Below, piece by piece: positions 6,527 through 47,211 of a DNA stretch of 64,000 bases. This DNA comes from Zoroaster sp. YZ-2022. Its lineage: Eukaryota; Echinodermata; Asteroidea; Forcipulatida; Zoroasteridae. The notes beneath the pieces were generated by a model. The model had not been told where the DNA came from and ran no database searches. It saw nothing but the letters and a program-made list of their open reading frames with translations. The stretch lies in assembly GCA_029582265.1 (NCBI GenBank), contig CM055823.1, positions 5,580,001 to 5,644,000 of the forward strand, written 5' to 3'. Each line of letters starts with the position of its first letter. The stretch's first letter is position 1. The position numbers and the translations under genes were made by a program.

Positions 6527-9500
6527 CTGTAAAAACATGGGGCAAACAAGAAATGCGGGATTATTTACTCAACATCATAAACACAAAATGACGGAGAAAA
6601 TTCCATTATTTAACCAGTTAGCACCGGGAATAAAAAAGTTTTTCTGAACCCCCGTGCCGGGTTTATTTTTACCGCACAAACACGAACAATGGTGCTCACC
6701 AGAGCGTGACCGGGGAGACTGCATCTTCCACCGTATGCTTATGGCTCGTTGCCACGTCGACCGGGAATCTATACAAATATTCCCGAGAATCCTGTGGCGT
6801 GTTTAGACGCTCTCCGATCCGCTGTCCAAAAACAAATTTGCGTGTATACACGGCCTCCGACGCGAACTGGTTAAAAGTTCAGGGATCTCGCCAGCCCGTC
6901 CCTACCAGGCAAGCTTGGTGGTTGAGAGGTGGTTTTCCGCGTAGGCCTTGACTAAAGGCTAGTTTTCGCATAGCACTGTAAACTTGTCATGAATTTGACA
7001 TCAGAAACAATTTTCTTGCTGCGAACATAAAATGTGGCCCCCATAATGTGCCCCCCATGTTGCACCCCCCCATGTTACCTGCAGCTGCGTTTCTCTGGTC
7101 AGCCATCTTGGCAATCTCCTGCATGTCGTTTTGCTGTTCCACTGACAGGTGTGATGTAAGCGCGTTATACCAGGAAGGGTCGTTAGCTTGGATATCTGCA
7201 ATTGGAAAATAGTTTAAACACAAAAACATTCAAGAGAAGGCACAACATTGATTTCAAGTAATGGACGTCCATTTTCAAGAGAAGATACAACATTGATTTC
7301 AAGTAATGGACGTCCACTTTCAAGAGAAGATACAACATTGATTTCAAGTAATGGACGTCCATTTTCAAGCGAAGATACAACATTGATTTCAAGTAATGGA
7401 CGTCCATTTTCAAGCGAAGATACAACATTGATTTCAAGTAATGGACGTCCATTTTCAAGAGAAGATACAACATTGATTTCAAGTAATGGACGTCCATTTT
7501 CAAGAGAAGATACAACATTGATTTCAAGTAATGGACGTCCATTTTCAAGAGAAGATACAACATTGATTTCAAGTAATGGACGTCCATTTTCAAGAGAAGA
7601 TACAACATTGATTTCAAGTAATGGACGTCCATTTTCAAGAGAAGATACAACATTGATTTCAAGTAATGGAAGACCATTTTAAAGAGAAGATAAAACAGTG
7701 ATTTCAAGTAATGGGCGTCCATTTTCAAGAGAAGATACAACATTGATTTCAAGTAATGGACGTCCATTTTCAAGAGAAGATACAACATTGATTTCAAGTA
7801 ATGGACGTCCATTTTCAAGAGAAGATACAACATTGATTTCAAGTAATGGACGTCCATTTTCAAGAGAAGATACAACATTGATTTCAAGTAATGGACGTCC
7901 ATTTTCAAGAGAAGATACAACATTGATTTCAAGTAATGGACGTCCATTTTCAAGAGAAGATACAACATTGATTTCAAGTAATGGACGTCCATTCTCAACT
8001 AAAAGTTTCATCACAATGCACAAGGTGCTCACTTTTTTATATAAAATGAAAAATGAAAAATGAAAAACCCTTTTTTCTGTTGTAACATTTTACAAAAAGT
8101 TGGGGAATTGTAAGCTTTTAGATAATAATTTTACAATCTGGTAGTCATTGATTAACCCTAACTAACCCATATCCTCCTAAATCCTCCGATGGGCATTTTT
8201 TGGGGAAAAATTCAGCACTGTTGGAAACTGGTACTACCTGGCAAGAAGTACAGGCTATATGTGCTGAATATGAAAGACCAATAAAAATGCATGGTGTATT
8301 TTGAAGATAATGACATGTTTCCAAAAGTGCACTGGAGGATTTTGGAGGATTCTGGAAGGTTCCTAGCCAGAATGCCTAGGGGTTAGCGTTAAATTTGTTT
8401 TTAAATAATATGTGTGAGAGAACTGTATCTCACGGGTGCACCTTAGCGTTTATCGAATGTGCCCATTGTTTGCCACACGGAATGGTTCGCCTACGTCTAG
8501 TTTAAGAACTCATTAGTATCGCTATATGCGGTTTTGTACCATGATGGTATTTTGGTATTGTGACAATTGATGCATCGGTAAATCATTACACCCTAGGGCT
8601 GTGCGTTTTCGGATATTTTTGGAACTGGATACCCAAACTCAGGAAACTTCGGATACCCGGATACCCGTTTTAATTTTTGTTGAAAACATGCCTCCGGTGG
8701 TGTACAAATACATGTACTGTAAATGGTAACAAATTGACCTTTATAATACAGAAGATACCATACTTAAAATTGATCTTTTCTTTACTGTCTTTTTTATTAA
8801 ACTAAACAATTAGGCAAACATTCCCTCCTGTGCTGCTGGTTTGATAAGTTGTTTGAAGCAGCAGCTGCCAGGCCCTTTGCAGCCTTAACGATTCGATACA
8901 ATTCATCACAAACAGTTGGAGAAAAATGTATGGAAAATGTCCATAAAATACTACAAAGACTATATTGGAGTGTAATCTCTTTAATTTAAAGATAATTGTC
9001 CGTGAAAGTGTAAACATTTTTCATTATTCTAGAGTCACAGATTTCTGTTCACTCCGCTCAAATGTTAAGTCCGATTTTTAAAAAGTCTTTTACGGGTAAT
9101 TGGAACCGAAAAATAGAACTGGGTAAATGACTGTTTTGGTCGGGTATCCAGATACCCGGCACAGCCCTATTACACCCCTATCTATTTGTCTGTGGTTTTT
9201 TTTTTCACTCAATCATGAACTCACTTGTCAGGATGTTTTTGAAGAGCATATATTCATCATCAAAGGGGCCATCTTCATCGTCAAGTGGTGTGTTGTATCC
9301 CTCTAAAGCCGTCTCCTCGTACATTTCTTCATCATCACTGTCATCATCGCGGTCATTAGCCTGAGAGTACATAATAACCAAACACTGTCAAATCTATGGC
9401 TAGGAAATGTTGGGGTAAGGCCAAGTAAAAAAAAAATACCAGTTGATCGTCCTGGTTTTTTCAAAAAGAGGAGGATGAGGGCCTTTTTATTTTTTATTTT

Positions 9501-12500
9501 TAAATTTTTTTCCAAGATGGCCGCCAAGCATTTAAATTAAAAATGGCCACCAATTTTTCAGTTTGAAATCACCGCCAACTTTTTTTTAATAGCTATCGAA
9601 CAAGAAGTTGAGTAAAAATATTCATGTTAAACAATGTTTGATGTATTTTGTTAAACCCAAGTAAAAATACATGAAAAATTTACTCTTTTTGTGGACAAGT
9701 ATAACAAATTAAAAAAAATTTAAAAAAAGGATGCGGGTGGGGATGATCAACTGGTATTTTTTTTTACTTGGCCTTAACTTGCCTGGTACAAATACAGACC
9801 AATGTCTAGTGTTCACTTACAACTCTTTCTAACCGCTCTAGGTATTATGCTAACTATTTTTGGTGATTAGTCAATGTCGAGTGTTTACTTACAACTCTTT
9901 CTAACCGCTCTAGGTATTATGCTAACTATTTTTGGTGATTAGTCAATGTCGAGTGTTTACTTACAACTCTTTCTAACCGCTCTAGGTATTATGCTAACTA
10001 TACTGAGACGCAATAGAAACTTACCACTTGTTTTGGAATAGCATAAAATAGAAATGGTTCAAAATAAGACAACACAACAATTTGGATTAGAAATGTTGGC
10101 ATTTTATTGAGGAAATGTCCACGTTTTGTCCGCTGTACTCGATCCCATCTGTATCCACTTCACCGCGAAACATCAGAGGGTCACGTTGCCAAAATAAGTG
10201 CACATATTACATTTGTGCATTGTGATTACTGATAATTTAAGGTCGAAAAAGTGGTAAGTTTCTATTGCGTCTCAGTATACTTATAGTGATTAGTCAATGT
10301 CTAATGTTCACTTACAACTCTTTCTAACCGCTCTAGGTATTATGCTAACTATTTTTAGTGATTAGTCAATGTCTAGTGTTCACTTACAACTCTTTGTAAC
10401 CGCTCTAGGTATTATGCAAACTATTTTTAGTGATTAGTCAATGTCTAGTGTTCACTTACAACTCTTTCTAACCGCTCTAGGTATTATGCTAACTAATTTT
10501 AGTGATTAGCAAAGGTCTAGTGTTTACCTACAATTCTTTCTAACCGATCTAGGTATTATGCAAACTACCTTTAGTGATTCGCCGATGTCTAAAACTGCTC
10601 TAGTATTGTGCGAACTATCTTGAGTGATTAGCCAATGTCTAGTGTTTACTTACAAACCTTTCTAACTGCTCTAGGTATTATGAGAACTATCTTTAGTGAT
10701 TGGCCAATTCTTTTTAACCGCTCTATGTATTATGGAAACTATCGTTATAGTGATTAGTCAATGTCTAGTGTTTACTTACAATTCTTTCTAACCGCTCTAG
10801 GTATTCTGCTCCATCCTCATCTATTTCATCTTCGTCACTATCTAGTGCAGCTTCTTCATAGTCACTGTCATCATCTTCATTATCTGATTCCTCCTCCTCT
10901 GCTGTTGCTCGGCCTGATTAAGGGCAACATTATTAAGGTCAGATTGATTGGAACTGGGTCAGATTGATTGGAATTGGGTCAGATTGATTGGAATTGGGTC
11001 AGATTGATTGGAATTGGGTCAGATTGATTGGAATTGGGTCAGATTGATTGGAATTGGGTCAGATTGATTGGAATTGGGTCAGATTGATTTGTTAAGATGG
11101 ATTTGAATTGAATTAGATTGATGAATAAATAAAATAAAATTGGTTACGACCATATAAATAGGTACAATGTGTCCGATTGGTTGAGGTCATGGATATTCTT
11201 AAGTTTTGCCCGTGTCAGAGATACACATGTATAAGCAAAGGTCAAATTGTATAAGGGTTCTGAATGGTATCAGGTCAAATTGAAGCAGGTCAAATTGAAG
11301 CAGGTCACATTTACGGGTAAATATGTCACATTGATGAGGGAAAGTAAATAATTCGAACTTACACTCATAAGCCCTCTTGAGACCTCTAAACAGCAGGAGA
11401 AGGGCTGGTATGAACTGTTGGGCACACTCCAAGACAACGGGTGGCTTGTTGGTTATCGACAGTAAGGTACAAATACCCAGGACGCAAACTTTCCGATCAT
11501 GTAACCTGCAGTAAAACCATACAGTTGTAATAAGGAGTTAATCATATCTGGTTTATTATCTTTCATAACTGAACTGCGTAAAAATATCCTGACCCCAGGT
11601 ACAATTTGGACTTGCCAACATAACACTATGTCGTGGCCGAGCGGTCTAGCTTACCGGACTCAAGTTCTGGTGTTAGCAGCAGAATGTGGGTTCGAATCCC
11701 GGCCGTGACACTTGTGTCCTTGAGCAAGACACTTAACCATTATTGCTTCTCTCCACCCAGGGGTTAAATGGGTACCTGTGAGGGCAGAATTGGTTGATTA
11801 GCCCTATATGCGCTGTAATGGCAGCAATTGAGCTGTATACTCCCCAGGGAGCTGAGATGGTTTCAGGAATGATTTATGAGCCTTATGAGCAGGGGTAATA
11901 ATATAATGCGCCTTGAGCACCACTCAGGTGGTGGATACGTGCGCTATATAAGTCCACACATTATTGTTATTATTATTACTATGTACTAATGCTTTATGTT
12001 CCTTCTAATTATTACTTCTTTTTTTTTAATTTTAATTTTATTTTGATTTTACTTGTTTTTAATCCCTTGGATTGATTTTTATTTGGCTTTTTATATTATA
12101 TTTATATATTACTCAAAACAATTTAGAGAACACCGGATTTTTAACATCAAATAGGTTTGAAATGTTCCATGAACCGGGATTTTCATTTGCAACCCCATCT
12201 CTCTTTCAGTAGTCATGTCATGAATTGTGTAATCACTACATGCATCCTTTATCATCTGTTTCATTGTGCAGTTGTTTCTCATCAATTCTGTGAAACATTG
12301 TGTTTATCTGAAATAAATGATCTTGCTTTAACTGAGATTATTCCGGTGTTCCCTAAATTGTTTTTAGTAGTATATTATATTTTCATTATATTGTTTGATT
12401 ATGTTTGGCAGCATTATGGAGAGCCACTAGATTGTGATTTGGTTCACATTTTGGTAATCCTACAGGGGTGCTGTCAACATTTTGTCATGTTTACCTTATT

Positions 12501-15500
12501 TTCATCATGTATATGTATTTTAAATTTTTCTCTAATTGGTTTTTTACCATTGTGTTTGTGATTGTTTCTGCCCTGTGAAATAATAAATGAAATGAAATGA
12601 TTAAGGCCATAAACCATTTTGTAAAAAAGCGTAAATTGTCGAATGGATAAAATTACCAATAGGAACACAAGTTTCTCTTGTTTGATTAACCCTCCTACAA
12701 TCGGTGCAATTTTTGAAACAACCCATTCAGGCCACTCCAAGCCATTAGCTGTTGCCAGTGGCCTCCTATGGTTACCCTTCTGTGCACTGTCACACCACTG
12801 AGATTGTAGGGTAAAGTGGTCTCCCATTGATACATTGCAGGCCATACTAATATGTTCAAACATTTACAGTGACCTTGGGTGGCACACAGTTGATTTTGTA
12901 AGATTACTTGGAAAGGACAGCAGGCTTGTACATGTATATGACATAAAACACAATAAAGGGGGCCACTTTGCATCCGTCACGTTAGCAGTTTTTCCAATGG
13001 TTGTTATTTATTTTTAAGTACCTGAAACCGACCAAAAAGTGTTTCAACATGTGAATGGACATGCAGGCTTATACTGGAACTAATTGAGTTTATTTATTTT
13101 ATTTTTTTATTTTTTAATTTATTTTGTTACCCTCAAATTTCCATAAAAATTGGATGGAAAAAGTTACCTCACTTTTCCGTCCATTTGTTGATTGAAATTT
13201 TAGGGTAATTAAAAAAAAAATAGTAATAATCAACTCAAATTATCTTTAGGATAAGCATGCATGTCTATTCAAATGTGAAATTCTTTTTTGATGGTTTCAG
13301 ATATTAAATTTTTTTTTTACAACCATTAGCAAAACTGCTAACGTGACAGTAGGAAAGTGGCCCCCTTTATTGTGTTTTATGTCATATATTGAAGGTTGCT
13401 CAAGATCAGAATTTTGTGGATCGGAGTGGCCTCCATGTGTAGGAGAGTTAAAGTCACAATAAATGTGGACTTACTGTTATAATTTCCCGCCTCGATATTA
13501 AAAACTACTCGTAGCATCCCAATTCCCCACACACATACAAAAAGAATTCATGTGTCCGACACTTGCACTAATCAAATAACTGCGAACAATAGGCACAAAT
13601 ACCAATGCTGACAGTCAACTCCAAACAAACTAGATACATCAAACAAAAGCCAGCAAGTCTGTGAAAGGGTGTCGGCAAATGTTATTTCTAACGCCTTGAT
13701 CTGAGGTTTTCTTCATTTTGTTAACAAACAAAAAAAATAAAATAAAAAAAAATAAATTAAAAATAAAAATTCAGAAACTTCCATTTGTGTGGCTTAAATA
13801 TTCAGTCCAAATTTTAAAGTCATTTACTGGAACCGAAAATTGGAACCGAGTTATGACAGTTTTAACTGGTAACTTAGCAGGTGCGGAAAAAGTATGGTCT
13901 TGCCAACATTACCAATAGGTAAAACTTGTAGCTTTGCATGGTGAGGAGGATAAGTAAGACTAATTGCGGTGACACCATGTGAAATTCTCAATTGAGTAGT
14001 AATAAGTTTCTCCTGAAGACGATCAGAGCATACTGATCGAAACATCGAGTTGTACCTCTAGTTCTTTTCAGAACTTATTACTACTCAATTGAGAATTTCA
14101 CATGGTGTCACCGCAATTAGTCTTACTTAACATTACCAATGTCGTACCTTACTTTTAACACTATCAAATCGGGAATTAAATATCCACAATTCTCACCCAA
14201 GAAAGCAGTCGGTATCATGAAGCCACTGTTTGACAAACTGAGCAGTCACTGCCTCATTGGTGTTGGGTATCGTCATCTTCTCCAGTGTCTCCATCAGCAG
14301 TATAGGGTTATAATACAAGGCCGCTACGACAACCTGTAAGCACATCTGTCTTAACTCTGTCGTCTTGACTTCTCTTGTTAATCTGTTCAGGACGACTTCT
14401 ACAAAGAGGGGTACGCACTGGGAACATACCAAGTCAATACATCGTGTTTAGTTAAAACTAGAATCTTTGCATGATGAAGATTATGTTTTATGCAAATTGC
14501 CCCACACAAGGCCAATGGCCACTCCAAGGTGGGGGCTACTAGTCATTGAGTTGTTACAACGACTCCACACTGAAGAACCGGCCCCTCGCACTGAAACAAG
14601 ACAAGTTAATAACCAGGCTCTTCATGGTGCGAATAGGACTGGGAGGGGTAACTAGTCCAGAACAAGGCAGTTGTTAAACTGCCTCTGCCCCTATGAGCAA
14701 TTATGGTTAAGTGTCTTGCTCAAGGACACAAGTGTTAAGGCCGGGACTCGAACCCACATTCTGCTGCTAACACCAGAACTTGAGTCCGGTAAGCTAGACC
14801 GCTCGGCCACGACACTCCACAAATGATAAGTAAAGACTAGGCTTGGGCGATGACACGATAATATTGAATATAGCAAAACATTTTTTTTACTTGATTATGA
14901 CATCGAGAATTTTTCAAATCATCGAGATATCGGCAGATCGCGATGAAAAAAATATATTGCGATGAAAAAAAAATCCTCAATTGTCAGTTGGGTCAGAAAT
15001 TCCATGGAAAAAACTTAGGGAAGTCTTTTCAGCTTTCGTGAGAAACAAAATCGAACTACTTCTGTAGTAAGACGACTGTCAGATCACAAAGGAGACGCCT
15101 GACGGGGTTGTTGTTTAATAATCCACCGCCACTCAAAGAAATCTATTCAGACTGTTGGGGATTGAATGGGGTATTTGACCCAACAATGTGTAGACAATGT
15201 TTACGTCTCACTCTCTAGCCATGGTGGTCTGTGACTCTGATAAATGTTTGCCGCACCAAAAAGTATCAACGCACCGATTTTGACGCCGAACTATGACCAG
15301 AAACCGGAAACATTTCTATTTCGGACTTATCTTGTGGTCGATTTGATAATACACTGAGCAAAAATATAAACGCCCCATGTTTCAACCTGACGCCCACCGT
15401 GTCCACATGCATGTCCATGATTGCCAGACGCCACTATCGTGTTCTAACGGACAGTAATCTGTAGCATATTGAACAACAAAATGAATTTTGTATGATTTTG

Positions 15501-16212: not shown

Positions 16213-19200
16213 ACATCACCAACAATCAACACCATGAACAATCAATCAACAAACAAACATCAACAAACAAACATCAACAAACAAACATCAACAAAAACAT
16301 CAACCACCAATAATCAACATCAACCAAACATCAACATTTACAAAAACATCAAAACTCAACAATCAACAATTAACATCAGATATGAACATCAGATAACGGT
16401 TGGTGAGGTCAAGGCCTGAACCAGTGTACAGACCTGTCAAGATGCGACATACAAAAGATTGGTAAAACTTGTAGCTTTGCATGGTGAGGATGATAAGTAA
16501 GACTAATTGCGGTGACACCATGTGGAATCTCAATTGAGTAGTAATTAGTTCTGAAAAGAACTGGGGGTACAACTCGACGTTTCGATCAGTATTCTCCTGA
16601 GAACGATCAGAGCATACTGATCGAAACGTCGAGTTGTACCACCAGTTCTTTTCAGAACTAATTACTACTCAATTGAGATTCCACATGGTGTCACTGCAAT
16701 TAGTCTTACTTATACAAAAGATTGACAAACCTTTTTGCACATGTTATAGACGATTTCAAGGTGTCTTGCATTAGACAAGAAGGCCGGGGGATCTGTAGTG
16801 ATGTAATTATGCAATGCTGGCATCATTTCTGCAGGAAGGGAAAAGGTTTGAAAATGAGGATAACACTTACGGTGACAATGTGGTGGTGGTGGTCAAAGGA
16901 GAAAGTTTTAGAAATTACCAATTCTTTTCAAAACCGAGACATTTACAACTCAATAGAGAATCAGTTGTTGCAAACTGCTTGCCAACCTAAAGGACCTGTA
17001 GTAGAAATGCACAATAGTAGTTATGGAGTGTCGTGGCCGAGCGGTCTAGCTTACCAGGAAATTTGGTCTGGTTCCAATAATTATGTACACAACTATCAAG
17101 TGATTCACTGGTTGGCAAAAAAAAAATAAAAAAATACCCCCCTCCCAAAAAAAACTCACTGCACCGATTTTGAAGCCAACCTATGACCAAAAACCAGAGA
17201 CTTTTTTGGGGGGCCTTAAAGGTAGTGTAAAAGATTGGCAACTTACAAAATAGTCGACTTGTAATTTGGAACTTACTAAATGCATATTCACATTGCATAT
17301 TTACAATGCAACAATGACACAATGTAACAAGTTAAAAATCAAATGTTTGCACAGGATTGTTATTCGAAACCTACCCCCTATAGGTATTCTGGCGAGGAAC
17401 CTTCTTTAACCCTAACCCCCTATAGGTATTCTGGCTAGGAACCTTCTTTAACCCTAACCCTCTATAGGTATTCTGACTAGGAACCTTCCTTAACCCTAAC
17501 CCCCTATAGGTATTCTGGCTGGTAACCTTGTTTAACCCTAACCCTCTATAGATATTCTGGCTAGGAACCTTCTTTAACCCTAACCCTCTATAGGTATTCT
17601 GACTAGGAACCTTCCTTAACCCTAACCCCCTATAGGTATTCTGGCTAGTAATCTTGTTTAACCCTAACCCTCTATAGATATTCTGGCTAGGAACCTTCTT
17701 TAACCCTAACCCTCTATAGGTATTCTGACTAGGAACCTTCCTTAACCCTAACCCCCTATAGGTATTCTGGCTGGTAACCTTGTTTAACCCTAACCCTCTA
17801 TAGATATTCTGGCTAGGAACCTTCTTTAACCTAACCCCTATAGGTATTCTGGCTAGTAACCTTCTTTAACCCTAACCCCAGGTATTCTGGCTAGGAACCT
17901 TCTTTAACCCTAACCCCTATAGGTATTCTGGCTAGGAACCTTCTTTAACTAACCCCCGGGTATTCTGGCTAGGAACCTTCCCGAATCCTCCAAAATCCAT
18001 CAGTGCACTTTTGGAAACATGCCCTTATCTTCAAAATGCACCATGCATTTTCGTTGATCTTTCATATTCATCACTTATAGCCTGTACTTCTTGCCAGGTA
18101 GTAATTTTGTCCCATTTGAAGAGGTGAAAGTACCAGTTTCCAACAGTGCTGAATTTTCCCCCAAAAAGTGCCCCTTGGAGGATTTTGTTGGATTTGGAGT
18201 GGTTAGGGTTAATGTACATCTTGATTCAAAGAGTATACATTTTCGTAAAATCTGCGTCCAATCCTTCCAACGTTGAACCTTCCCTTTAAGGTAAGCCTAA
18301 GTTACCATGGCAACAGTAGAGTCTAGACTCACCAACAAAGTAGTCATATCCATCTTGTTCAAATGTAGTATACAGCATCTCAAAGACTTGCCACAGAGGC
18401 GGGGATACGTGAGTACACGTCATACTGAAGATCAGAGACATAACTTCCTCGTAGAAATCTGCAGATTTAAAATACACCATTGTATTAACCCTAACCTTCC
18501 CAAATCCTCCAAAATCCTCTTTGCTGAAGTGAAGGATTTTGGAGGATTGAGGTTATTAGGCATACTTGCCTTTCCATGGTACATGTACATCCATGTTTGT
18601 TGTAGTGATTGCAAGGTCAGTGCTTGGGTCAGTGGACACTGTTTATTGCTCCATGCATGCAGGGAAGGTCCCTGACCATGTACATGTATCACAGATTAGA
18701 AACACATGTGTGCATACATGTCATGTGCTTGCTTTACTACTGAAGGATTTTGAATGAGTCAGGTTATGTGTAAGCAAGTGGGCCGAGGTTAATAGGTGGT
18801 TTTCACTCAATTTTAAACTGAAAAATTATGTATGGGGAATGAATAATCATCTTTAAAAACACACCTGTAAGCAAAGTGTGCGTTAAGGTTAGCACAGCGT
18901 TTGTAAGGTTTGCACAGCGTGCGTTAATGTTTGCACAGCGTGCGTTAAGGTTTGCACAGCGTGCGTTAAGGTTAGCACAGCGTGCGTTAAGGTTTGCACA
19001 GCGTGCGTTAAGGTAAGCACAGCATCTCAATTGTCGCCAAGTGAGAATGTGGTTCAGGAGAGAACCAATATCGGGCATCTCATCTCTCACCTATCACTAA
19101 GAGAGAATGTGGTTCAGGGAGAACCATGGGGACTTCTCGGGGACTTCTCGGGGGGCTTCTCTACATTGCAATTAGCATGCTCTAAGCATTGTCCGGAGAC

Positions 19201-22200
19201 TGCCGAAAAGTTTTTTTTTTAGAACCCTGTACCTTACTTTGCGATAGTTAACACGTGGTGTTACTGCAAACCTAAATGATATCAATACTCCACCATGTGG
19301 AGTGTCGTGGCCGAGCGGTCTAGCTTACCGGACTCAAGTTCTGGTGTTAGCAGCAGAATGTGGGTTCGAATCCCGGCCGTGACACTTGTGTCCTTGAGCA
19401 AGACACTTAACCATAATTGCTTCTCTCCACCCAGGGGTTAAATGGGTACTTGTGAGGGCAGAGTTGGTTGATTAGTCATATATGCGCTGTAATGGCAGCA
19501 ATTGAGCTGTATACTCCCCAGGGAGATGAGATAGTTTCAGGAATGATTTATGAGCCTTATGAGCCTTATGAGCAGGGGTAATAATATGCGCCTTGAGCAC
19601 CACTTAGTTGGTGGATACGTGCGCTATATAAGTCCACACATTATTATTATTATTATTATTATTATTCAAAGTCTTAAATCTTATGTTCACAATGGATACT
19701 CACCTAGTACGCTATTTTGTAAAACTACTGCCACCACATTCAGAACGATACCTTCAAGCTGGACAACAATCTGCACATATGAATATATAACCATCTAAAG
19801 CTAGACCCATCACTCAATTTAACCTTCCTACAATCAGTGCAATTTTTGAAACAACCCATTCAGGCCACTCCAAGCCATTAGCTGTTGCCAGTGGCCTCCT
19901 ATGGTTACCCTTCTGTGCACTGTCACACCGCTGAGATTGCAGGGTAAGGTGGTCTCCCATCGATACATTGCAGGCCATACTAATATGTTCAAACATTTAC
20001 AGTGGCCTTGGGTGGCACACAGTTGATTTTGTAAGATTACTTGGAAAGGACAGCAGGCTTGTACATGTATGTACTGAAGGTTGCTCAAGAACAGAATTTT
20101 GTGGATCGGAGTGGCCTCCATGTGTAGGAGGGTGCAATAAATTTTGAAAACTATTTTCCTATGTTAAGATGACAGCATTATAGATTGAATTATTTCTCAT
20201 AATTATTATGAAATACACACACTAATTTGATAATCTAGTGTTTACCAATGCTGTATAAACTCCCCTTGAAAATAAATTTGAAGATCAGCTCAGCTTAGAC
20301 CAACCAATTTATTCATGTATTAGGAATACTCAAATATGAAATTTAGTTTTAACCACATACACCTACAATCCCGGCCAAAATAGTTGGGACACGTGACAAT
20401 AAACATACCCTACGCTGTCCCCGCTCCCCTACGTCCCCGCTCCCCTACTCCCCCGCTCCCCCCACCAATGTTGTTATCTCCAGCCGGAGCACAGACCGCC
20501 CAATAAGAGCCAACATTGTCAGGGGGCCCGGGGGGCCCAGCGAGATTTGGCCGGGATTGTCTGAATTCCCTTGTAGTATAATATGTGAGCGACATGCCCA
20601 TTTTATCCATGCGCTTATTGTCTGTCTTTGTGAATTTTTTGTTTTGTTCAGTTTATTTTATTTTATTACTACAGTAGTATTATTAAGTTTTCTCTGGAGG
20701 GGTGTTTGGTTTTGTTTCCCAAACATGAAATAGTGTCCAAAGGTTGAATTAAAGAAAATTATTTGGGGAAAAAATTATAATAATGATAAAATATTATTGT
20801 AGATTTTACACTAACGTGTGATAAATTATACTCTTTATACAAAAAGATACAAACGTTCTAATCGGGTGGGATTCGAACCCACGATCCCCGCGTTTTACAA
20901 CAGGTGTCTTATCCACTATACCACCGTGGTATGCACCAGTTTGGTCCCATTCATATGTCGATGGATAATGTAACCACGGTTCACCACTGAACAATAAAGA
21001 AGGAGAGTCACTCCCTTCCTTTCTTTTTTGGTTTCGATGGATCACCGCTGGATTTTCGTCAAAATAACGGAATGAGGGGATGAAACCAAATTGAAGAGGC
21101 TTGTATGTTGTTTGTGTATCTTAATGTGCTTTTCTCTGAACACAAACTCTCTTTTGGGAACTTATGGACCAAATGGCATGGTGAACCGTGTACGGTGCAC
21201 CCTACAATAAAGTTCTGATCATCTGTGTTTTTGCGCATAGCGCATTGCAGCCATGCATCGTCCAAGGGTATCGAACTGGGAGAACGCTTGCAGGTTGCCA
21301 CGGTGGTCTAGTGGTTAAGACATCTGATCTGAAATGCGGAGATCGTATGTTCGAATCCCAACCAAGTAGAATGTTTATGTATTTTTGTCCGCAACACCGA
21401 CAATAATATTACTTTTATTTATTTATTGTTTATTTTTTTTTTGGATTATTATTTTTTGATTATTGGATGATGATTTTGAGGAGGAGAGTGACGAAGATGA
21501 TGAGGATAATGAGGATGAGGATGACGTCCAGCGTCACCTACATCATTGGCATCATCATCATCACGAGATGATCACCAACACCATCACTTGCCTTGTCCCT
21601 TAATGTATTGTCCTTGAGACAAAGACAAAGACTGCGGTTTGCCCGCGTCTGGTCACGGCTCCGTAGATAAACTAAGAGAAAATTCAGACAATCCCGGCCA
21701 AAATAGTTGGGACACGTGACAATAAACATACCCTACGCTGTCCCCGCTCTCCGCTCTCCGCTCCCCTACTCCCCCGCTCCCCCCACCAATGTTGTTATCT
21801 CCAGCCGGAGCACAGACCGCCCAATAAGAGCCAACGTTGTCAGGGGGCCGGGGGGCCCAGCGAGATTTGGCCGGGATTGTAGATAAACTGTCTGAAATGT
21901 TTTTATCTTAGAGAAAAAATTAATTATGTTGAATTTAGAAGGCAACTTTTAATAAAACAATTTTTTATTATTATTTTTTTTGTACGAAACGATGTCCAGT
22001 TGCAGCCAAAATTGCTGGCTCGATTGGAATTCTGCCGTGCTGTGTTTGAAATGAATTTTTCACATAGGGGTATGGACGTTTGCCCGAATTGTGAGGCCTC
22101 TCTTAGCCAACACACTGTGTATGGAAGGAAAAAAAAGTATCACAGCACTGATTTCGAAGCCGACCAGAAACTGGAGACCATTTTTTTTTATTGGACTAAT

Positions 22201-24144: not shown

Positions 24145-27100
24145 CTTACCAGATGCTGTGTGATTTCTACAGCAATCGGTATAATTTCATCGCCATAGGT
24201 TGTGATTAATCTCTGCATTACTTCAGTCAGATCGTCGTTTTCCGTTTCTCTGATCACGTACAGCAACGCTAAAAGTTTCAGGACAGAAAAAGGAAAATTT
24301 TGCCTTTAACTTTCTCAGAGGTGTTGCTTAGTTATCTTTCAAGAGCAGAATTACGAAAATCAGGGCTACGATTTGACAAAAGTAAAAAATCCTGAAAATT
24401 GGGTAGCAGGCCTGGGTCTCCCTTTGGTCTAGAGGACAAAGCCCCCTGAACCTCCTGGATGTTTAATTTTGGAGGATTTACAGACTCTCCACATCCCCAC
24501 AAACAACAAGAAACTAGAGGTTTGGACACAATACAGGCTACTTCTTTCTTTCCTTGGTGGCTACTTCTCTTCTTTCAAGAAAAATGTTGAGGCAAAGGAA
24601 CACTTGTAGAAAATCCTGAAATCAGGAAAAATCTTGGGGAATCAAAGGCCTGAATTTTCAGTTTTAAATGTGGGAGGAAAACCAACAACAAATATAGGTA
24701 GCTGGACCTGGTCAGCAGAGGCTGTACCATGACTTTGGCCCTTCTGCCTTAAAGGCATTTTACCAATGCCGTACCATCCCTTTAAACAGATGGGGAAATT
24801 GCCCATGATATATGAGCATAATGGAGTGCCATGGTCGAGCAGTTTAGTGCATCGGATTTGTGTTCTGACGGCTGAGTCGTCAGAATGTGGGTTCGAATCC
24901 CAACCGCGACGATGGTGCTTGTGTCCTTGAGCAAGACACTTTACCACAATTGCTTCTCTCCACCCCCAGGAGTAAATGGGTACCTGTGAGGGCAGAGTTG
25001 GTTGTTGTGTTTGATTAGCCCTATATGCGCTGTAATGGCAGCAATTGAGCTGTATACTCCCCAGGGAGCGGAGATGGTTTTGGGAATGATTTATGCGCCT
25101 GATGAGCAGAGGTAATAATACAATGCGCCTTGAGCACCAATTTGGTGGATACGTGCGCTATATAAGTCCACATTATTATTATTATTATTATAATGCAAAA
25201 TAATTGTTCCCGACCTTAAATTTCAAACCTAGGTTCTTTCTCAAAGGCAAAATGGGGGGAAAATACATACATCATACATACATAAGAGTAAGCTAGTCAG
25301 GTGTGAAATGAACATAAGATGATTCATCTAAAAAATAAAAAAGAGAGAGTCGGGTACTGGTCCTGGACAAAAGGGGGATTAACCCTAACCGCCTCGGTAT
25401 TCTGACTAGGAACCTTCTTTAACCCTAACTCTCTATAGGTATTCTGACTAGGAACCTTCTTTAACCCTAACTATCTATAGGTATTCTGACTAGGAACCTT
25501 CTTTAACCCTAACCCCCTATAGGTATTCTGACTAGGAACCTTCCTGAACCCTAACCCCCTATAGGTATTCTGACTAGGAACCTTCCCGAATCCTCCATAA
25601 TCCATCAGTGCACTTTTGGAAACATGCCCTTATCTTCAAAATGCACCGTGCATTTTCGTTGATCTTTCATATCCAGCACTTATGGCCTGTACTTCTTGCC
25701 AAGTAGTAATTTTGCCCCATTTGGAGAGGTGAAAGTACCAGTTTGCAACAGTGCTGAATTTTTCCCCCAAAAAGTGCCCCTTGGAGGATTTTGCAGGATT
25801 TGGGGGTGGTTAGGGTTAAGTATAGAGGTACCAAGAGTTTTGGGCCGGAAGAGGAGATTATGAGATGAGTGAAAAGCAATGAGTTGGACAGGGAGAGTAA
25901 AACAAAACAAATTTAAAGCAAATATAAAGTGTATGTGGAGAAAGAAAAAAGAAAGAAGAACATGAGAAAGAAAAAGAAAAATTAGTAATTTCCTTCCTGT
26001 ATGTTGAGACCATGGGAGTGAATGGTGTGGGTATGTCTGATCCACATCTTTTCTCTGCTGAGACAGACCGATTATAATGATTAAAATGATTAGATCATTA
26101 TGCCATCATACCTTGGAGTATATCCTTGACGTAAGGCTGAACATACACCTTAGCTTTGTCTTCATGGCTACTGATCAGCTCTTGTAAGGCAATGGCCGCC
26201 TCAACCTTCAAAGAGTTCATAATAGTGTTGTTAAACTTGGGTCAGACTGGCATGCGAGACCGACTGGCATGCGAGACCGACTGGCATGCGAGACCGACTG
26301 GCATGCGAGTCCGACTGGCATGCGAGTCCGACTGGCATGCGAGTCCGACTGGCATGCGAGTCCGACTGGCATGCGAGTCCGACTGGCATGCGAGTCCGAC
26401 TGGCATGCGAGTCCGACTGGCATGCGAGTCCGACTGGCATGCGAGTCCGACTGGCATTAGAGTCCGACTGGCATAAGAGTCCGACTGGCATAAGAGTCCG
26501 ACTGGCATAAGAGTCCGACTCGTAACTCAATGTTTATGACTTGAATTCAAAGCCAAAATGGCCTGTTCAATTTTAACCATGTTTATAATCCCAGAAAAGA
26601 TTACTCAATGTAAAATCATTGTCTTGTATTTTTGACGGTAGTCAAAATGACAGTCAAAACCAGTCAAAAATACCTGTGTGCACAGTTGATTCAACAATCA
26701 AAAACAGGAAGTTGAATGATTTTGACCACTAAAGCTACTTGCCACATGACTTTGATTTGGCATTTGACTAAAACATTCACAGGTTATAAAGAGAGAAGGC
26801 ATACAGCAGTTTTGCCAATGTTGTACCTTCCATAAAAAAAGAAGAAGACAGCATTCATACCTTGACAGGCATCTCTTTGTCGTGGATGAGGCTGTTCCGA
26901 GTCAAGTCGAGGGCGGTCTTCAGATTGCGTTCGTTCTTGAAGTGAGCCTCACAGAATGCGTGGAGCACATAGTTAGCCTGACCAATCAAAACAGACAAGG
27001 AAAAGCAATGAGAAACTATTCAGGAATCATTCCAAAGACAAAGCTGAGCACGTTGTAGCCCTCTGGAGGTGAAATGCACGTAGGCTCCGAGTTCAGGGCA

Positions 27101-30100
27101 TTTTGGGCAACCATTTTATGTATACGTACAAATGTATGAAAAGAAATTGCCATAGTTCTGAATGATTACAGAAATTCATTTTATTATACAAAGTGTTGTA
27201 TTCATGTGTAGTGTTGTATCTTTTAGTCGGGGTTTCTGAGAGATAAACGTGCTTCCGAAAACTTTCCTAAGTAAGAAACTCTTGATAACCAAGACTAACT
27301 GAGCGTGCTCTGTATAGTGGATTTTTTCCCCAACCGGACGAAATATGGAGCGCCGGATTTCTTTGGGGAAAATATGAAAAAATATCATACCGTTTCTATA
27401 GCCCTTTTCACACTAGTCAAATCCCCGAGGTCTTCCCCGGGGAATTACAGTCGTCGTTTTCACACTTTAAAACCCTCCTACACATGGAGGCCACTCCGAT
27501 CCACAAAATTCTGTTCTTTAGCAACCTTCAGTACATACATGTACAAGCCTGCTGTCCTTTCCAAGTAATCTTGCAAAATCAACTGTGTGCCACCCAAGGC
27601 CAGTGTAAATGTTTGAACATATTAGTATGGCCTGCAATGTATCAATGGGAGACCACTTTACCCTGCAATCTCAGTGGTGTGACCGAGTGCACAGAAGGGT
27701 AACCATAGGAGGCCACTGGCAACAGCTAATGGCTTGGAGTGGCCTGAATGGGTTGTTTCCAAAATTGCACTGATTGTAGAAGGGTTAAGTCTCCACAGCA
27801 TACTAATGAATGCTGTATCACGCATTTGACAATTAGGTCATTGGCAAGAAAAGAGTGGCTGGTATGAGGCGTAGAAAGCAGCCACTGCCAACTGACGTCA
27901 GGAGTACCAGTTTAAATCACCCTAGCCTACAGATCTGACATCACGCTTTGAGCTACAGGTGCGTGAATTACACCAGATCCTCGCCGTGCGGCTGCCATAT
28001 TTCCCCCGGTGTTCAATTTTGACCTTGGTTGGTAGCTAGCGCGCGAGCCTCGACAGCGTGGCGTCAGATCTTCAGCACAAGGTATCCAATGAAACCCCTT
28101 GAATGGTACGCCTGGAGCCTGTCTATATCCTTGATATAGGTTCAAGCCAGGGGACCAGTCTACACTCACCCTTGCTCTCATGTATCCCAACTCACTGTTG
28201 AATTCTGGGAAGATGTTGTTGACTAGAACTTGTTCCATCCGTTCTTTGTACATCTTTTTCTGTTCAGAGAAAAAATGAGATTAGCTGATAAAATAACATC
28301 AGAGTTACCAAGTTATTATTATAAATGGTTCACTGAATTAAAAAAAAAAAATATCAAAAAATAAATAACTCAGCTAGGCGATTATATAAGCCTCTACATG
28401 AAGGTCTGGGCAAAGGCTGTGTCTGGCTGGGCTTCTCTTGGTACATCTCTTGGATGCACCAAGACTTTGGCCCTCCTCTCTTACCGACAAGAAGCTATTT
28501 TTAACATACTTTGAGCAAGATGTCAGCCATGGTTCCCACCATGTGCATAACGCCATCTTTCTTCCTTGGCTCCATTCCTGGCTCAGTCATGACCTGCATA
28601 CAGAATCCCATGGTCTTCTGTAGAACTTCCTTTCTCTTGCCAGCACAGGATCGAAGGACTGTCTGAGCCGCAGCGACTGGCGATATAAAGTCCTCAAAAG
28701 CATCTGCAAAATTATGTACGAAATAATGTTTTTTAACCCTCCTACTGTTTGACCATTTGAAACCATTCAAAATTTCCACTTTCAAAAATGCCCATTGGTT
28801 TTGTACACACATGGTGATACCAACAGTGTTGGTAGCAAGCTTTACTACCATTCAAATCCATTCAAATGCATAGAAGGTCCATTGATTCACCACTTAGAAG
28901 TATCCAAACAAGGTTTTGTATTAGCTGTACTACCATTTGGAAAGATCCAAACAAGGTTTTGTATTAGCTGACCTACCATTCAAAACCATTTGGGGGAATC
29001 AATACTGTACAGTTATTTCACCATTCAAAACCACAAAAGCGAATGGTTTCAAATGGTGGATCAACTTGTATGAAAAAGGTACCAGAAGTAGGAGGGTTAA
29101 CCCATTTATTACCCAAAATACCTTAACCCTAACCCCTTCAGGGTTGTGATTTGACTAAGTAAAATGGTTAACAGCGTTTCTTTTAACCAGTTCACGTCGG
29201 GAATAAAAAAGTTTTTCTGGGCCCCTGTGGCGGGGTTTCTTTTTCCCACACACACGTTAATGGAAGCTTCCACAGCACGTGGCCGGCACTTCCGAGCACG
29301 TGTGGCTCAACTGAGCATGCATACAAATATTCCGGAGTTTCCTGTGGTGTGTTTAGACGCTCTCCGATCTGCGGTGCAAAAAAAAAATTGCATGTATACA
29401 CGGCCTCCGACGCGAACTGGTTAAACTAGGACACTGATTCCATGCCCTGTTGAAAGTTCTGATTGTGATGATGTCCCTTTAAATTGTCAGGGTTTATCCA
29501 AACATACCAAACTTGATACGTATGTACTCATACGGGTCCTCATTCCATAATTCCTCGTTTTCATCAGTGTAGCACATCAGTGGAAACAGAACTTCCTGAA
29601 TAATGGGCTATCGTAGGCAAAAAAAAGCAAGATAAATAAAAACCAAATAAGTATCCAATTGTGTTGAGATCGAAAGTAAACATTATTTCAAAGGAACTGT
29701 ATCAGTATGCTCTGATAGACCTTATGCATATGACACAAACTGAATATCGCCCTCTACCAGAGGCAAACGAAGGTCACTCATTGGTTCATGTATGCACACT
29801 GTGTGTATACGCACACACAGCGCGCATACATGAACCAGTGAGTGACCTTCTCTAGCCTCTGATAGAGGGCGACCTTCCGTTTGCAACATCATATGCATAA
29901 GGTCTATTGTCTTCAGGAGAACTACGAGTTCTTTTCAGAACTACTTACTACTCAAGAGAATTTTCCACACGGTGTCACCGCAGTCTTTACTTATCCTTTT
30001 CACCATGCAAAGCTACAAATCTAGCTACATGGTGTCACCGCAAACAGTCTTCACTTATCCTTTTCACCGTGCAAAGCTACAAATCTTAGTACATGGTGTC

Positions 30101-33100
30101 ACCGCAAACAGTCTTCACTTATCCTTTTCACCGTGCAAAGCTACAAATCTTAGTACATGGTGTCACCGCAAACAGTCTTCACTTATCCTTTTCACCGTGC
30201 AAAGCTACAAATCTTACTACATGGTGTCACCGCAAACAGTCTTTACTTATCCTTTTCACCGTGCAAAGCTACAAATCTTACTACATGGTGTCACCGCAAA
30301 CAGTCTTTACTTATCCTTTTCACCGTGCAAAGCTACAAAGCTTACTTAAAAATTATTTGACATCAATTATTTGACGGAGTGCCATGGTTGAGCGGTTTAG
30401 TGCATCGGATTTGTGTTCTGATGGCTGAGTCGTCAGAATGTGGGTTCGAATCCCAACCGCGACCATGGTGCTTGTGTCCTTCAGCAAGACACTTTACCAT
30501 AATTGCTTCTCTCCACCCAGGGGTAAAAATGGGTACCTGTGAGGGCAGAGTTGGTTGTTGTGTTTGATTAGCCCTATATGCGATGTAATGGCAGCAATTG
30601 AGCTGTATACTCCCCAGGAAGCTGAGATGGTTTCAGGAATGATTTACGCGTCTGATGAGCAGGGGTAATAATATAATGTGCCTTGAGCACCAGTTTAGTG
30701 GATACGTGCGCTATATAAGTCCACATTATTATTATTATTATTATTATCATTAAGCTTGGGTGACAAGACAATATCGAACATCGCGATACCTTTTTTTATT
30801 TGATTACGACATCAAGAACCTTTTTATTAAGTTAACCAGATATCACCAAATCGTGATTAAAAGAATATATTGCGATTGAAAAAAAAAATCACAATTGTTA
30901 GGCGAGTCAGAAATTCCATGAAAACAAAAGCAAACTACTTCAGTGGGTAGCCACTGAAAATTCCTATGAAAATGCATGCGGAATGGCTAAAAGTCAAACT
31001 CACTGGTCTGACCGGCCAATGAAAAAAAAATGTCAAGGGCAACACCCGTAAATGTTCAGAAAAAAACATTTAACTGACCTGGATGTGTGGTTTGATGAAC
31101 TTCCAAGCAAACGCATGACTAACTCTGTAAAAAGAAACAAATATTAGGCCATGAATAAAAATTTAAAGTTATGATCATCGTAAAGTATGGTGGCTAAGAC
31201 AGGCCTCACAAATCGGACAAATGCTCATACCTCTATGTGAACAAGTTCTTTAAAAACAGCACGGTAGAATTCCAATCGATCCAGCGATTTTGGCTGCAAT
31301 TGGACATCGTCTCATAGCAAGAAATCTAAAAATGCTGACGTGCGGGTCCGAGGCAAGAAACCGGACTTTTATTTTTGGCCTTGGGGACAAGGGCCAAAGC
31401 CGTGGAACAGCCAAGCCTTTGAGAATCCCGGCCAGGCCCAGGCTTTTCCCCCTGCCTACTAGCCTATATAATGAGCTCTGCTTGCCTGGGCTAGGCCCTC
31501 CAGAAGCCAGGCCCTCCAGAAGCCAGGCCCTCCAGAAGCCAGGCCCTCCAGAAGCCAGGCCCTCCAGAAGACAGGCCCTCCAGAAGCCCAGGTAATGTTG
31601 ATTGGCAGGTACTGTATTGTTACAGGATTAGGACTCACAAAAGACAGATTAGGAGGCCAGGAAGCCTGGGCCGGCCGGGCTTTTCAAAGGCTTGGCTGTA
31701 CCATGACTTTGGCCCTTGTCCCTTATGTATAAAAGAGTTTTTAGTACATGATCATACCCGGTGTTGACGTAGTTCAGAGCTTGTTGTAGTACTCTTGGAG
31801 CCACATACCATTTTTGGCGGTACTGATCTAGAATTCCGAGTATAACTCTAAGCGTAGAAGCTGCAATACAAGATCATATCATAAATTTTTTTAATTTGCA
31901 TTGATAAATTGCTTTTTGGATATCAGGTCAACTATCTCACCTTGTTTTTCCAAAAAATAGGCAGCGGGCCTGAGTCTCCCTTTGGTCTGGAGGACAAAGC
32001 CCCCTGAACCTCCTGTGGGTAGCGGGCCTGGGTCTCCCTTTGGTCTAGAGGACAAAGCCCCCTGAACCTCCTGTGGGTAGCGGGCCTGAGTCTCCCTTTG
32101 GTCTAGAGGACAAAGCCCCCTGAACCTCCTGTGGGTAGCGGGCCTGGGTCTCCCTTTGGTCTAGAGGACAAAGCCCCCTGAACCTCCTGTGGGTAGCAGG
32201 CCTGGGTCTCCCTTTGGTCTGGAGGACAAAGCCCCCTGAACCTCCCTGTGGGCAGCAGGCCTGGGTCTCCCTTTGGTCTGGAGGACAAAGCCCCCTGAAC
32301 CTCCCTGTGGGCAGCAGGCCTGGGTCTCCCTTTGGTCTGGAGGACAAAGCCCCCTGAACCTCCCTGTGGGCAGCAGGCCTGGGTCTCCCTTTGGTCTGGA
32401 GGACAAAGCCCCCTGAACCTCCTGGATGTTTAATTTTGGAGGATTTACAGACTCTCCACATCCCCACAAACAAGAAACTGGAGGTTTGGAAACAATACAG
32501 GCTGCTTCTTTCTTTCCTTGGTGGCTACTTCTCTTCTTTTTCAAACAAATTTTAGACAAAGGGAGATTTGTAAGAAATCATGAAATCAGGCACAAATCCT
32601 GAGAAGTCACAGTCCTGGATAAAGTGTGGTTTCTGTGCTTGGAATTTGTTATCAGCGGAACATCCTGTGCAAAGAAATCAATAAGCGGTTTATCAGCAAC
32701 TTCCGTTTCATTTTGATTCTGATTTCTTGCAGGATATGTGGTATTCAGTATATCGGTGAGACTCACTTAAACGGTTCTACGGTCACAGATCCGAAGCCAA
32801 ACCCCATAAGCTTGACACTCCTGTGGGCCAGCACTTCAATCTACTTAAATCATTCCATTTCTGACATGATTTTGCAGGGCGTGAGGCGCTTGGTAACCGC
32901 AGGGAATCGGTTGGTATCACCAGAGAAAAGATGTGGACCGGGCGTATCCACACCATTCGACCCCATGGTCTCAACATACAGCAAGGGAATGACTAATTTT
33001 TCCTTTCTCCACAGATATTTGTACATAATACGTTTGTTTTAAATTGGTCTTGCTTGGTACTTTGTCTGTTCCGTTTTCCTCTCCCTGTCTGATTCATTGC

Positions 33101-36100
33101 TTTTCACTAATCTCATAATCTCTTCCTCTCGGCAAAAACTCCTGGTACTTCTATTCAAACTTAATCCCCATTTTGTCCGCTCCTAGGACCAGCACCCGAC
33201 TTTAAAGTCATTTTTAAAGCACAGCACGGCAGAATTCCAATCGATCCAGCAATTTTGGTTGCAATTGGACATTATTTCACAGCAATAAAAAAAATATATA
33301 AAAAAATAAAAAATGCTGATCCGTGGGTTTGAGGGGACACGCGCAAGAGACCAGAAACAAGACTTCTTTTGAAAACACTGATAATTTACTTTTAACTCTC
33401 CTACAATCAGTGCAATTTTTGAAATAACCCATTCAGGCCACTCCAAGCCATTAATAACTGTTGCCTGTGGCCTCCTATGGTTACCCTTCTGTGCACTGTC
33501 ACACCACTGAGATTGCATGGTAAAGTGGTCTCCCATTGATACATTGCAGGCCATACTAATATGTTCAAACATTTACAGTGGCCTTGGGTGGCGCACAGTT
33601 GATTTTGTAAGATTACTTGGAAAGGACAGCAGGCTTGTACATGTATGTACTGAAGGTTGCTCAAGAACAGAATTTTGTGGATTGGAGTGGCCTCCATGTG
33701 TAGGAGGGTTTATTAACCCTAACCACCCTGAATCCATCAAAATCCATCCCCCTGTTTTGGAGGATTTCGGCGGATTCAGGATATCTCCACATTGAGCATA
33801 TGGCGGACTTTGATGGATTCAGGATTTCAATAGTTTTTAACTGCTTGGTCATGTTGGTTGATGTATTTTGATGGATTATAGCAGAGCTGCCAACTCTTCC
33901 GGATTCTGCGGAAGACTTCGCGTATTTGACGGTAATTTACTTACTTAAAATATATGCAAGGAGGCCTCTCCTTTTGGCACCAAAAGGAGAGGCCTCCTTG
34001 CATATATTTTAAATAAGTAAATTACCGTCAAATACGCGAAGTCTTCCGCAGAATCCGGAAGAGTTGGCAGCTCTGATTATAGTTACATGTACTGTACATG
34101 TACAGCCAACACTTGTATGTGTTAGATTTTGATGGATTCTATGCAGCAACATACTATACAAATTTTCATGTGAGCATGGTATCCTGAATCCGCCAAAAGT
34201 CCGCCAGAAATTTAGTGGTGGATTTTGGCGGATTCAGGATATGTCCAATATCTACACTGGCGGATTCTGATGGATTCAGGACACCAGCATTTTGTGTGTG
34301 ACAAAAACGGTGGATTTTGGTGGATTCAGGATACTTTCTAGTAAAAATACCCAAGGGGTTAGGGTTAAAAAGAAAAGCAAATGCTTCGAGGTATAATTTT
34401 TCACAAAATAATCGTCAAAAGCTTGGTTTTAAAGTGAACGTTGCCAATACTATTCTAATACTATTCTATTTGCTCACCTGAAAATGTCTTGAGAAACCAA
34501 TCTGAGAATTTCACATAATCCTTCACAACATTTCCAGGGCTTCCATACCTGTAACATTGAATAATAAGTCATACTCATATAGCGCATTATTACATGACTA
34601 GATAAACGCACAGCCCTAGTGGCATATATAAAATGTTCAGTTGAAATTTTAAAATGTCATTTACGGGTAATTGGAACCGAAAAATGGAACTGGGTAATGA
34701 CAGTTTCAGTCTGGTATCCGGGTACCTGGATACCCGACACTGCCTTATTATGAGCTGCAGTCCTATAGGCCCTTTTGAGGAGTGTCGTGGCCGAGCGGTC
34801 TAGCTTACCGGACTCAAGTTCTGGTGTTAGCAGCAGAATGTGGGTTCGAATCCCGGCCGTGACACTTGTGCCCTTGAGCAAGGCACTTAACCATGATTGC
34901 TTCTCTCCACCCAGGGGTTAAATGGGTACCTGTGAGGGCAGAGTTGGTTGATTAGCCCTATATGCGCTGTAATGGCAGCAATTGAGCTGTATACTCCCCA
35001 GGGAGCTGAGATGGTTTCAGGAATGATTTATGAGCCTTATGAGCCTTATGAGCAGGGGTAATAATATGCACCTTGAGCACCACTCAGTTGGTGGATACGT
35101 GCGCTATATAAGTCCACACATTATTATTATTATTATTATCCTTGGTTTCATTACCAGAAAGATGTTAATCCTGTCTGTACATGACTGACAGAGGGCGCTG
35201 TTCATGTAAACAGCAACTTGTCACCAGGGAATTAACATATGACTGGTTAACATGTGCTTTGGATTCACAGTCTAGGTTTGACGGTTACCAGGGAAGAGTT
35301 TATTTAGCATTTATATGCAGTAGCGGTTAGGGACGGCAGCCAAAGTCATGGTGCAGGCAAGCCTTTGAGAAGCCTGGCCAGGCCTGGGCTGGGCTATCTG
35401 ACCTCCTAGTCATAATCCTGTAAAAATTACAGTAGCTGCCAATCAAACTATCATGGGCTTCTGGAGGGCCTAGCCCAGCCAAGTAGAGCTCATTATAATG
35501 GCTGCAGTTGTGAACAAAAGACAGCTGAGGTGTCAGTCAAGTCCGTGTTAACAATAAGAGCTATTTGAGATCTATTCATTTAGTAAAGGGTCTTTTGTGC
35601 TCAGCTAGAGGATTATATAGGCCCACAGGCCTGGGCAAAGCCTGGGCCTGGCCAGGCATCTCAAAGGCTTGGCTGTACCATGACTTTGGCCCTCCTCCCT
35701 TAAGGTATCCGAGTGCAGTAGATGATTTTTTTTTCATGCTGATAAATAAAACTGCAAAAAAAATAACATGCACTTGACCGGGTAGACTGGGTGTACTTTC
35801 ACCAATAGAGCGCTATGCCGTGCACGGAATGGATATCAATCAAGTTTATCCATACCTTTCAAAGACTCTGGCGAGAATGTGTAGAGCCCACTTCTTGACT
35901 TTCCAACAGGGCAGCTCGGGCCGATCGTCAATATCCACTTGCAGAGATGCCTGGAATAATAGACAGATTTGAGACGGGCAAATCAGACTACTTGAGTCGG
36001 ACGCACGATGTCTGTAAAATGTCATTTTTAACCCTCCTACTACTACAAGGGTCAAAATCAGTCAAAATGTTGATATACTTGCCAAGGTATATCTAGTGCA

Positions 36101-46960: not shown

Positions 46961-47211
46961 GGCGCACTCTACTCCTATTCCAAAATAATAACTTTCTCAC
47001 ACAAAAAGGAACAACAATAATTTTGTTTACTAATCCGAGTGTTTCAGTTCTTCCACTTTGTTCGGTAGTTCAAGTGTAGGACGGGAGGACGTTGGATTAT
47101 ATTAGATTATTGGATTACCGCTCCTCCAGCTATAGTTTGACACGAAACTCAATGTAACTTGCTTAATTTAAAAAAAAAATTTATGAATAGTAACTCTCCA
47201 TTCCCAAGTTG

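Follow-up and report, generated by a model that had tools for sequence, protein, structure and literature searches.

Foldback repeats with a hammerhead-like motif and a one-sided tail as probable insertions of a Penelope-like element

Penelope-like elements (PLEs) carry minimal hammerhead motifs which lack helix III and whose role is described as unknown (PMC6155905, PMC7761336). Among the closest described systems is PAc, the Poseidon PLE of Anolis carolinensis, whose ribozyme was found to cleave only in the presence of its own protein. The substitutions C3G and G8C each abolish this cleavage, which is partly rescued when both are combined, and RNA-seq is reported to have shown no ends where the RNA would be cut (PMC11167929). 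In vitro, the PAc protein acts on both strands of its target, cutting and extending each, and the tail corresponds to the interval that separates two start sites (PMC11167929). The mode of PLE insertion, the origin of the inverted repeats and tail, and the role of the hammerhead are regarded as open questions (PMC11167929, PMC3846280, PMC7761336).

Foldback copies and their relation to a Penelope-like element

The window, i.e., the whole 64-kb stretch of DNA analyzed here (G000:C8:5580001-5644000), belongs to an assembly of 1.0 Gb in 616 contigs, and all results refer to this one genome. Four dispersed foldback copies had been reported in an earlier note on this DNA, and these were found at approximately 13917, 16462, 39377, and 47212 (e1 to e4). 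Each is a head-to-head inverted repeat, with arms of 58, 104, 126, and 28 bp for e1, e2, e3, and e4, respectively. The copies examined, a few ragged ones apart, end either at site B (...GTCTTACTTA), which is preceded by ...CTTACTTA and lies 112 nt counted from A9 of the hammerhead, or at site A, 33–35 nt farther. The ~33-nt stretch between site B and site A is termed the tail; copies of type AB have it in the left arm and those of type BA in the right. The features are as follows.

13905-13916 (left) and 14129-14140 (right), no strand: target site duplication of e1, AACATTACCAAT, an exact direct repeat
13917-14128, plus strand: e1, foldback PLE copy, type AB
14013-14046, plus strand: hammerhead-like core of e1, GTC to ATC (sequence reading, strict pattern scan)
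16449-16461 (left) and 16712-16724 (right), no strand: target site duplication of e2, ATACAAAAGATTG, an exact direct repeat
16462-16713, plus strand: e2, foldback PLE copy, type AB
16597-16630, plus strand: hammerhead-like core of e2, G8 to A (sequence reading)
29915-30346, plus strand: fifth, more diverged PLE 3′-end copy (sequence comparison)
39377-39681, plus strand: e3, foldback PLE copy, type BA, no target site duplication
39465-39498, minus strand: left-arm hammerhead-like core of e3, intact (sequence reading, strict pattern scan)
39533-39566, plus strand: right-arm hammerhead-like core of e3, G12 to A (sequence reading)
47200-47211 (left) and 47409-47420 (right), no strand: target site duplication of e4, ATTCCCAAGTTG, an exact direct repeat
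47212-47410, plus strand: e4, foldback PLE copy, type AB
47288-47321, plus strand: hammerhead-like core of e4, intact (sequence reading, strict pattern scan)

The left inverted arm carries the tail and the right sense arm lacks it in e1 (left arm on the minus strand to 14008, right arm from 14008, with an edge uncertain by 1 nt at the right duplication), in e2, and in e4, the left arm of which is short; e2 and e4 each have 2 nt in common with their right duplication. The arrangement is reversed in e3, where a target duplication was sought at the edges and none was found. The exact direct repeats of 12–13 bp previously claimed for three of the copies were confirmed around e1, e2, and e4.

The fifth copy (29915-30346) had been overlooked in the earlier note. 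Its segment comprising site B plus tail forms a 64-bp tandem array (29981-30346, 5.7 units), each unit of which starts at ref 492 of the PLE, runs across site B, and includes the tail. The A arms of three foldbacks also end at ref 491-492, and for this reason the array may represent a repeated template jump. Other dispersed repeats are present in the window, as seen from two pairs of open frames with common peptide stretches (12474-12863 with 33183-33572, and 755-1123 with 24642-25157, the latter sharing ...LLPLLI). A short array of TTATGAGCC (2.9 units at 19548-19573, 35028-35053, and 40179-40204) is probably part of another dispersed repeat. Long minisatellites occupy 7229-7998 (45-bp units), 43627-44681 (44-bp units), and 63278-63997 (32-bp units), and two open frames within 59228-63000 resemble exons of a flavin-containing monooxygenase in motifs such as GAGVTGL.

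Genome searches used e4, e2, and a pair of queries restricted to the arms, with 40 candidates scored from each of 1694, 1899, 1252, and 355 first-look candidates, respectively. Some copies were found to reach upstream into coding sequence. Copy L013 has a 397-aa frame with a match to RVT_1 (Pfam, E 8.7e-9, residues 20–109), the end of which lies ~225 nt upstream of the core CTGATCGAAACGTC; a GIY-YIG-like motif, GVYRIPCECGKVYIGETGR, lies in the same frame farther along than RVT_1, a reading made by eye and without a Pfam GIY-YIG match at E 0.001. Coding frames are present in three long inverted insertions (L011, L026, and C18), of which the one on C18 is an inverted copy of 4.3 kb with a 15-bp duplication. 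The inverted 3′ ends, optional tail of 30–40 nt, and target duplications of PLE type are all found here. On the basis of the reverse transcriptase frame and GIY-YIG-like motif upstream of the core, and of the 4.3-kb inverted copy with its duplication, the organization of the L013 and C18 copies appears to be that of Penelope-like elements, and e1 to e4 are best read as 5′-truncated, rearranged 3′ ends of such an element.

The hammerhead-like core

The core letters are CTGAGGA-CGATCAG-AGCATA-CTGATCG-AAACGTC. A 7-bp stem followed by GAAACGTC had been described, in which one G was counted twice, the last G of the stem being reused as G12; from its letters the core reads either as a 7-bp stem which includes G12, or as a 6-bp stem with one extra C after A9. 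The two-base stem III that had been proposed is loopless and cannot close inside one molecule. The cores named as intact, at 39465-39498 (minus) and 47288-47321 (plus), both fit the description. Core mutations had been assigned to three further cores and are found at 16597 (G8 to A) and 39533 (G12 to A), whereas that at 14013 is merely a change of GTC to ATC. The NUH rule still permits ATC as a cleavage triplet.

The strict pattern used for scanning (CTGANGA, one extra base, a fully paired stem of at least 5 bp, and GAAA) occurs at three places in the 64 kb (14013, 47288, and 39498 on the minus strand) and never in 100 sequences shuffled as two-base blocks. No site with the canonical spacing, which lacks the extra base, occurs in the 64-kb window, and such sites number 0.01 per shuffle. 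The Rfam hammerhead models gave no match at gathering in the window, and in e3, e4, and another 20 loci, searched with these models as proposed in the earlier note, there was none even at E values up to 10. Rows below gathering in the same loci (microRNA, Histone3, and others) are hairpin matches. A canonical type I hammerhead was rejected on the spacing and on the lack of a covariance-model match in the stretches scanned, a lack which the earlier note had named as a refutation but which leaves room for an atypical PLE ribozyme.

Among 114 genomic copies spanning the core, CTGANGA and GAAAC are intact in 87, and in 77 when GTC is also counted. The additional position holds C in 102 copies, T in seven, and G in three, and is missing from two. 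Folding with ViennaRNA gave similar structures for the short cores of this element and of PAc, with a 7-bp stem II, the extra base opposite G12, and a short stem I; a longer stretch of 96 nt from here folds differently around stem I. Given that the extra base, the short stem I, and the missing stem III are the same as in the Anolis PAc ribozyme, the motif belongs to a known, atypical kind of minimal PLE hammerhead and is a candidate ribozyme. The earlier assignment to a hammerhead of PLE or retrozyme type thus holds in that the motif belongs with PLEs; the core, however, is not canonical, having an extra base and a G12 that is paired in the predicted fold.

Outer ends, arms, and inner junctions

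A complete insertion was defined as one bounded on both sides by inverted 3′ ends and carrying an exact duplication of at least 8 bp, a repeat length which mispaired left and right flanks gave in 57 of 3660 cases. The first set comprised 61 complete inverted insertions of 184 bp to 4.3 kb, of which 31 were B/A and 30 A/B, with no A/A or B/B. Their duplications were 8–21 bp in length with a mode of 12 (21/61). Since the queries behind most loci in this set, e4 and e2, have one tail each, two tail-free arm queries of 75–76 nt were used for a second sample, with 59 loci fetched. This sample yielded 21 complete inverted insertions (11 B/A and 10 A/B), seven of which were already among the first 61; the duplications were 8–15 bp with one of the 21 at 12, so that duplication length is not fixed. 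Exactly one tail was therefore found in 75 of 75 complete inverted insertions (61 plus 14 new), approximately 73 of them independent, as two pairs share flanks (two insertions on C3, and L157 with L159).

Pairs of inverted ends without a duplication were less uniform. In the second sample there were five, four A/B and one apparently B/B (L144), which adjoins another copy. In the first set there were 16, namely 13 one-tailed, two A/A, and one B/B; each of these A/A and B/B pairs shares an end with another pair, and they therefore seem to join the ends of different insertions. Single-ended copies with duplications made up seven of the 59 loci of the second sample (four A and three B, L123 and L124 being duplicates), the left end being unseen in 26 of the 59. 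This count replaces one made under a looser rule, by which 12 of 39 loci were single-ended, some of them spuriously.

The terminal inverted repeats and duplications of mostly 11–15 bp are also what a cut-and-paste foldback transposon or MITE would show. However, the ends are unequal in all 75 cases owing to the one-sided tail, and the internal breakpoints are variable. In addition, some copies are truncated and single-ended, and a reverse transcriptase is encoded by a relative. Such a transposon is extremely improbable and was rejected on the unequal ends, and the statement in the earlier note that these are not cut-and-paste MITEs is borne out by these ends and by the reverse transcriptase-encoding relative.

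The two arms of an insertion were compared in 51 copies with both arms spanning ref 425-519 (of the 61, eight were too short and two badly aligned). At ref 449 the arms were T/T in 32 copies and C/C in 15, with no T/C and the remainder involving A or a gap, and at ref 490 they were C/C in 36 and T/T in 15, with none mixed. The mean difference between arms was 1.92 sites within a copy vs. 3.10 between copies, and the within-copy differences summed to 98, below the lowest sum (137) given by 5000 re-pairings, which mix subfamilies. The partner arm was not surpassed in closeness by an arm of any other copy in just 26 of the 51, and a single copy-private variant was present in both arms. This sharing of alleles is consistent with each insertion having come from a single RNA, or from two RNAs transcribed at the same source locus.

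Self-priming, in which a single cDNA or antisense transcript folds back and copies itself into an inverted repeat, is the reading given for rotifer PLEs (PMC3846280). It accounts for long near-perfect arms and for the alleles shared between them, but predicts equal outer ends, while those of all 75 complete inverted insertions are unequal. It was rejected on these ends, and we regard it as very unlikely here.

With regard to the inner ends, an arm ends at ref 397-402 (ATTCTCC) in 44 of the 61 insertions (33 B arms and 19 A arms), and it is the B arm that reaches farther 5′ in 41 insertions and the A arm that does so in 17, with equal reach in three. An initiator-like GGC|ATTC lies at this end with TACTTAAG at about −31 by our reading, and on this basis the ATTCTCC end is taken as the 5′ end of the RNA. 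The internal junctions vary among copies of one subfamily, and the outer ends are fixed. Some junctions recur, with 10 rows at ref 417 and seven copies at 399/406.

Recurrent central junctions would be expected of a stand-alone non-autonomous element (retrozyme- or SINE-like) which borrows the enzymes of a PLE and is both transcribed and copied in foldback form together with its ribozyme. At least 39 other genomic places, among 40 candidates scored, are 92–99% alike over nearly the whole e2 foldback, which also speaks for such an element. However, the variation of central junctions within a subfamily, the wide size range of the inverted insertions, and the coding frames in three of them count against it, and it is considered unlikely. 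A retrozyme would be a noncoding unit with hammerheads in direct repeat that yields circular RNA; the cores of the foldbacks lie in opposite arms, and no tandem or dimeric arrangement of cores was noticed in the copies examined. The earlier note had viewed the copies as products of a retroelement with a link to PLEs, and this part stands, with the additions that outer ends differ, internal junctions vary, and duplications are mostly 11–15 bp. It had also viewed them as a separate small retroelement or retrozyme, a part which is not supported: a related copy with a reverse transcriptase frame upstream of the same motif points to the debris of a coding PLE rather than to a retrozyme or stand-alone element.

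The predicted ribozyme cut lies at ref 437^438, where no ends were expected before the large sample. Of 42 distinct ends in ref 422-500, nine cluster at 437-441, where ends are denser than in any other 5-nt stretch (nominal P 0.001, with the stretch chosen post hoc); they include that of L163, at 438 with a 7-bp repeat, and that of L166, at 439 with a 12-bp duplication. Exactly at 438 there are two ends (P 0.10, not significant), and ends are most frequent three bases beyond the predicted cut, at 441, with five distinct ones (L116, L125, L149, and the blocks at C6:35238500 and C14:33702500). The count was made after removal of two palindromic, unresolvable L117 ends and addition of two later ends, with L122 (438-440, ambiguous) excluded by the duplicate filter. 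No further end within 437-441 came from the final 18 loci, which included several duplicates. The cluster may hint at a trace of the ribozyme cut.

A further reading is that the core is merely conserved coding sequence (codons ...ETS) and does not act as a ribozyme here. An open frame does run through the core in L006, G12 is paired in the predicted fold, and no Rfam hammerhead match was obtained at E up to 10 in e3, e4, and 20 loci. Against this, the architecture is that of the Anolis ribozyme, the C3G and G8C mutants of which lose cleavage (PMC11167929), and the 5′ ends of copies are enriched just past the predicted cut. A purely coding core is a reading that we take seriously, yet hold to be doubtful.

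Insertion mechanism and comparison with known systems

The foldbacks are probably PLE insertions, made mostly from one short RNA stretch around the hammerhead-like motif by two-ended target-primed reverse transcription. The PLE endonuclease would cut the two target strands ~12 bp apart, after which one target end would prime reverse transcription at RNA site B. The other would use site A of that RNA molecule, ~33–35 nt more 3′, as its own start, so that a tail would remain only at this end. Both of the resulting cDNAs would be antisense and would meet head to head, often where one of them had reached the sharp RNA 5′ end ATTCTCC just upstream of the core, and joining and repair would give an inverted repeat flanked by a duplication. 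Two initiations at A and B of one RNA would fit the unequal ends and the ability of PAc to cut and extend both target strands in vitro. From the observed ends, alleles, and duplications we infer the order of events, the single shared RNA, the joining step, and cleavage by the ribozyme; the hammerhead-like motif may cut some templates.

The single-ended copies with duplications (7/59 loci) count against an obligatory use of both ends, and some foldbacks could have been copied as foldbacks, given the recurrent junctions. The copies read all lack a complete 5′ end of the element. As to why one end is A and the other B, it would suffice that two enzymes on one RNA are unable to share a start site. 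It is tentatively suggested, with slightly less than even confidence, that PLEs integrate by coordinated two-ended target-primed reverse transcription, in which a pair of subunits would copy one RNA twice, each using a different target strand and a different fixed start, and in which some RNAs would be cut beforehand by the hammerhead, leaving 5′ ends just past the cut. Every inverted insertion would be one-tailed because each subunit starts at a different fixed site.

By our base-by-base reading of the printed RNA, the core is similar to that of PAc in having CUGAGGA, one extra base, a 7-bp stem II with its first base facing G12, GAAACGUC, a short stem I, and no stem III (PMC11167929). Reverse transcription of PAc starts at a stem loop 111–118 nt into the ORF, with the AUG at A9 by our reading, and site B here lies at 112 nt from A9; the PAc tail of 30–40 bp between two start sites likewise compares with ~33 nt here (PMC11167929). 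In contrast, the extra base is U in PAc and C in 102 of 114 copies here, the triplet at A9 is AUG there and mostly ACG here, and the sequence of stem II differs (PMC11167929). A strict one-tail asymmetry is not stated for PAc in the available text of PMC11167929.

Families of Penelope elements in Adineta vaga are similar in having an inverted pLTR beside a direct one and an optional 31-bp tail at one inverted pLTR (PMC3846280). Their target site duplications are 8–10 bp, compared with mostly 11–15 bp here, and their inverted repeats are attributed to self-priming on an antisense template, whereas the unequal ends found here argue for two separate initiations (PMC3846280). The motif also resembles the set of Lunse, Weinberg, and Breaker (2017), with no stem III, a location in PLE pseudo-LTRs, and a presumed action as dimers (PMC7761336, PMC6155905). 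Metazoan non-LTR retrozymes share the short repeats, hammerhead motif, and target site duplications of more than 4 bp; unlike these, related copies here are protein-coding and the motif has no stem III (PMC7229834).

No statement of the strict one-tail rule or of two-ended priming was found in the literature surveyed, although both may be in print, as key papers (Craig 2021; Cervera 2014; Lunse 2017) lay outside the survey. The kind of motif is already known, while the anatomy of the insertions, i.e., the one-tail rule and the allele-sharing arms, is newer. A rule without exception in 75 insertions, taken together with the shared alleles, would make the tail a record of the start site used by each target end. 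The one-tail rule argues against self-priming, and could be tested in other genomes and with the Anolis enzyme.
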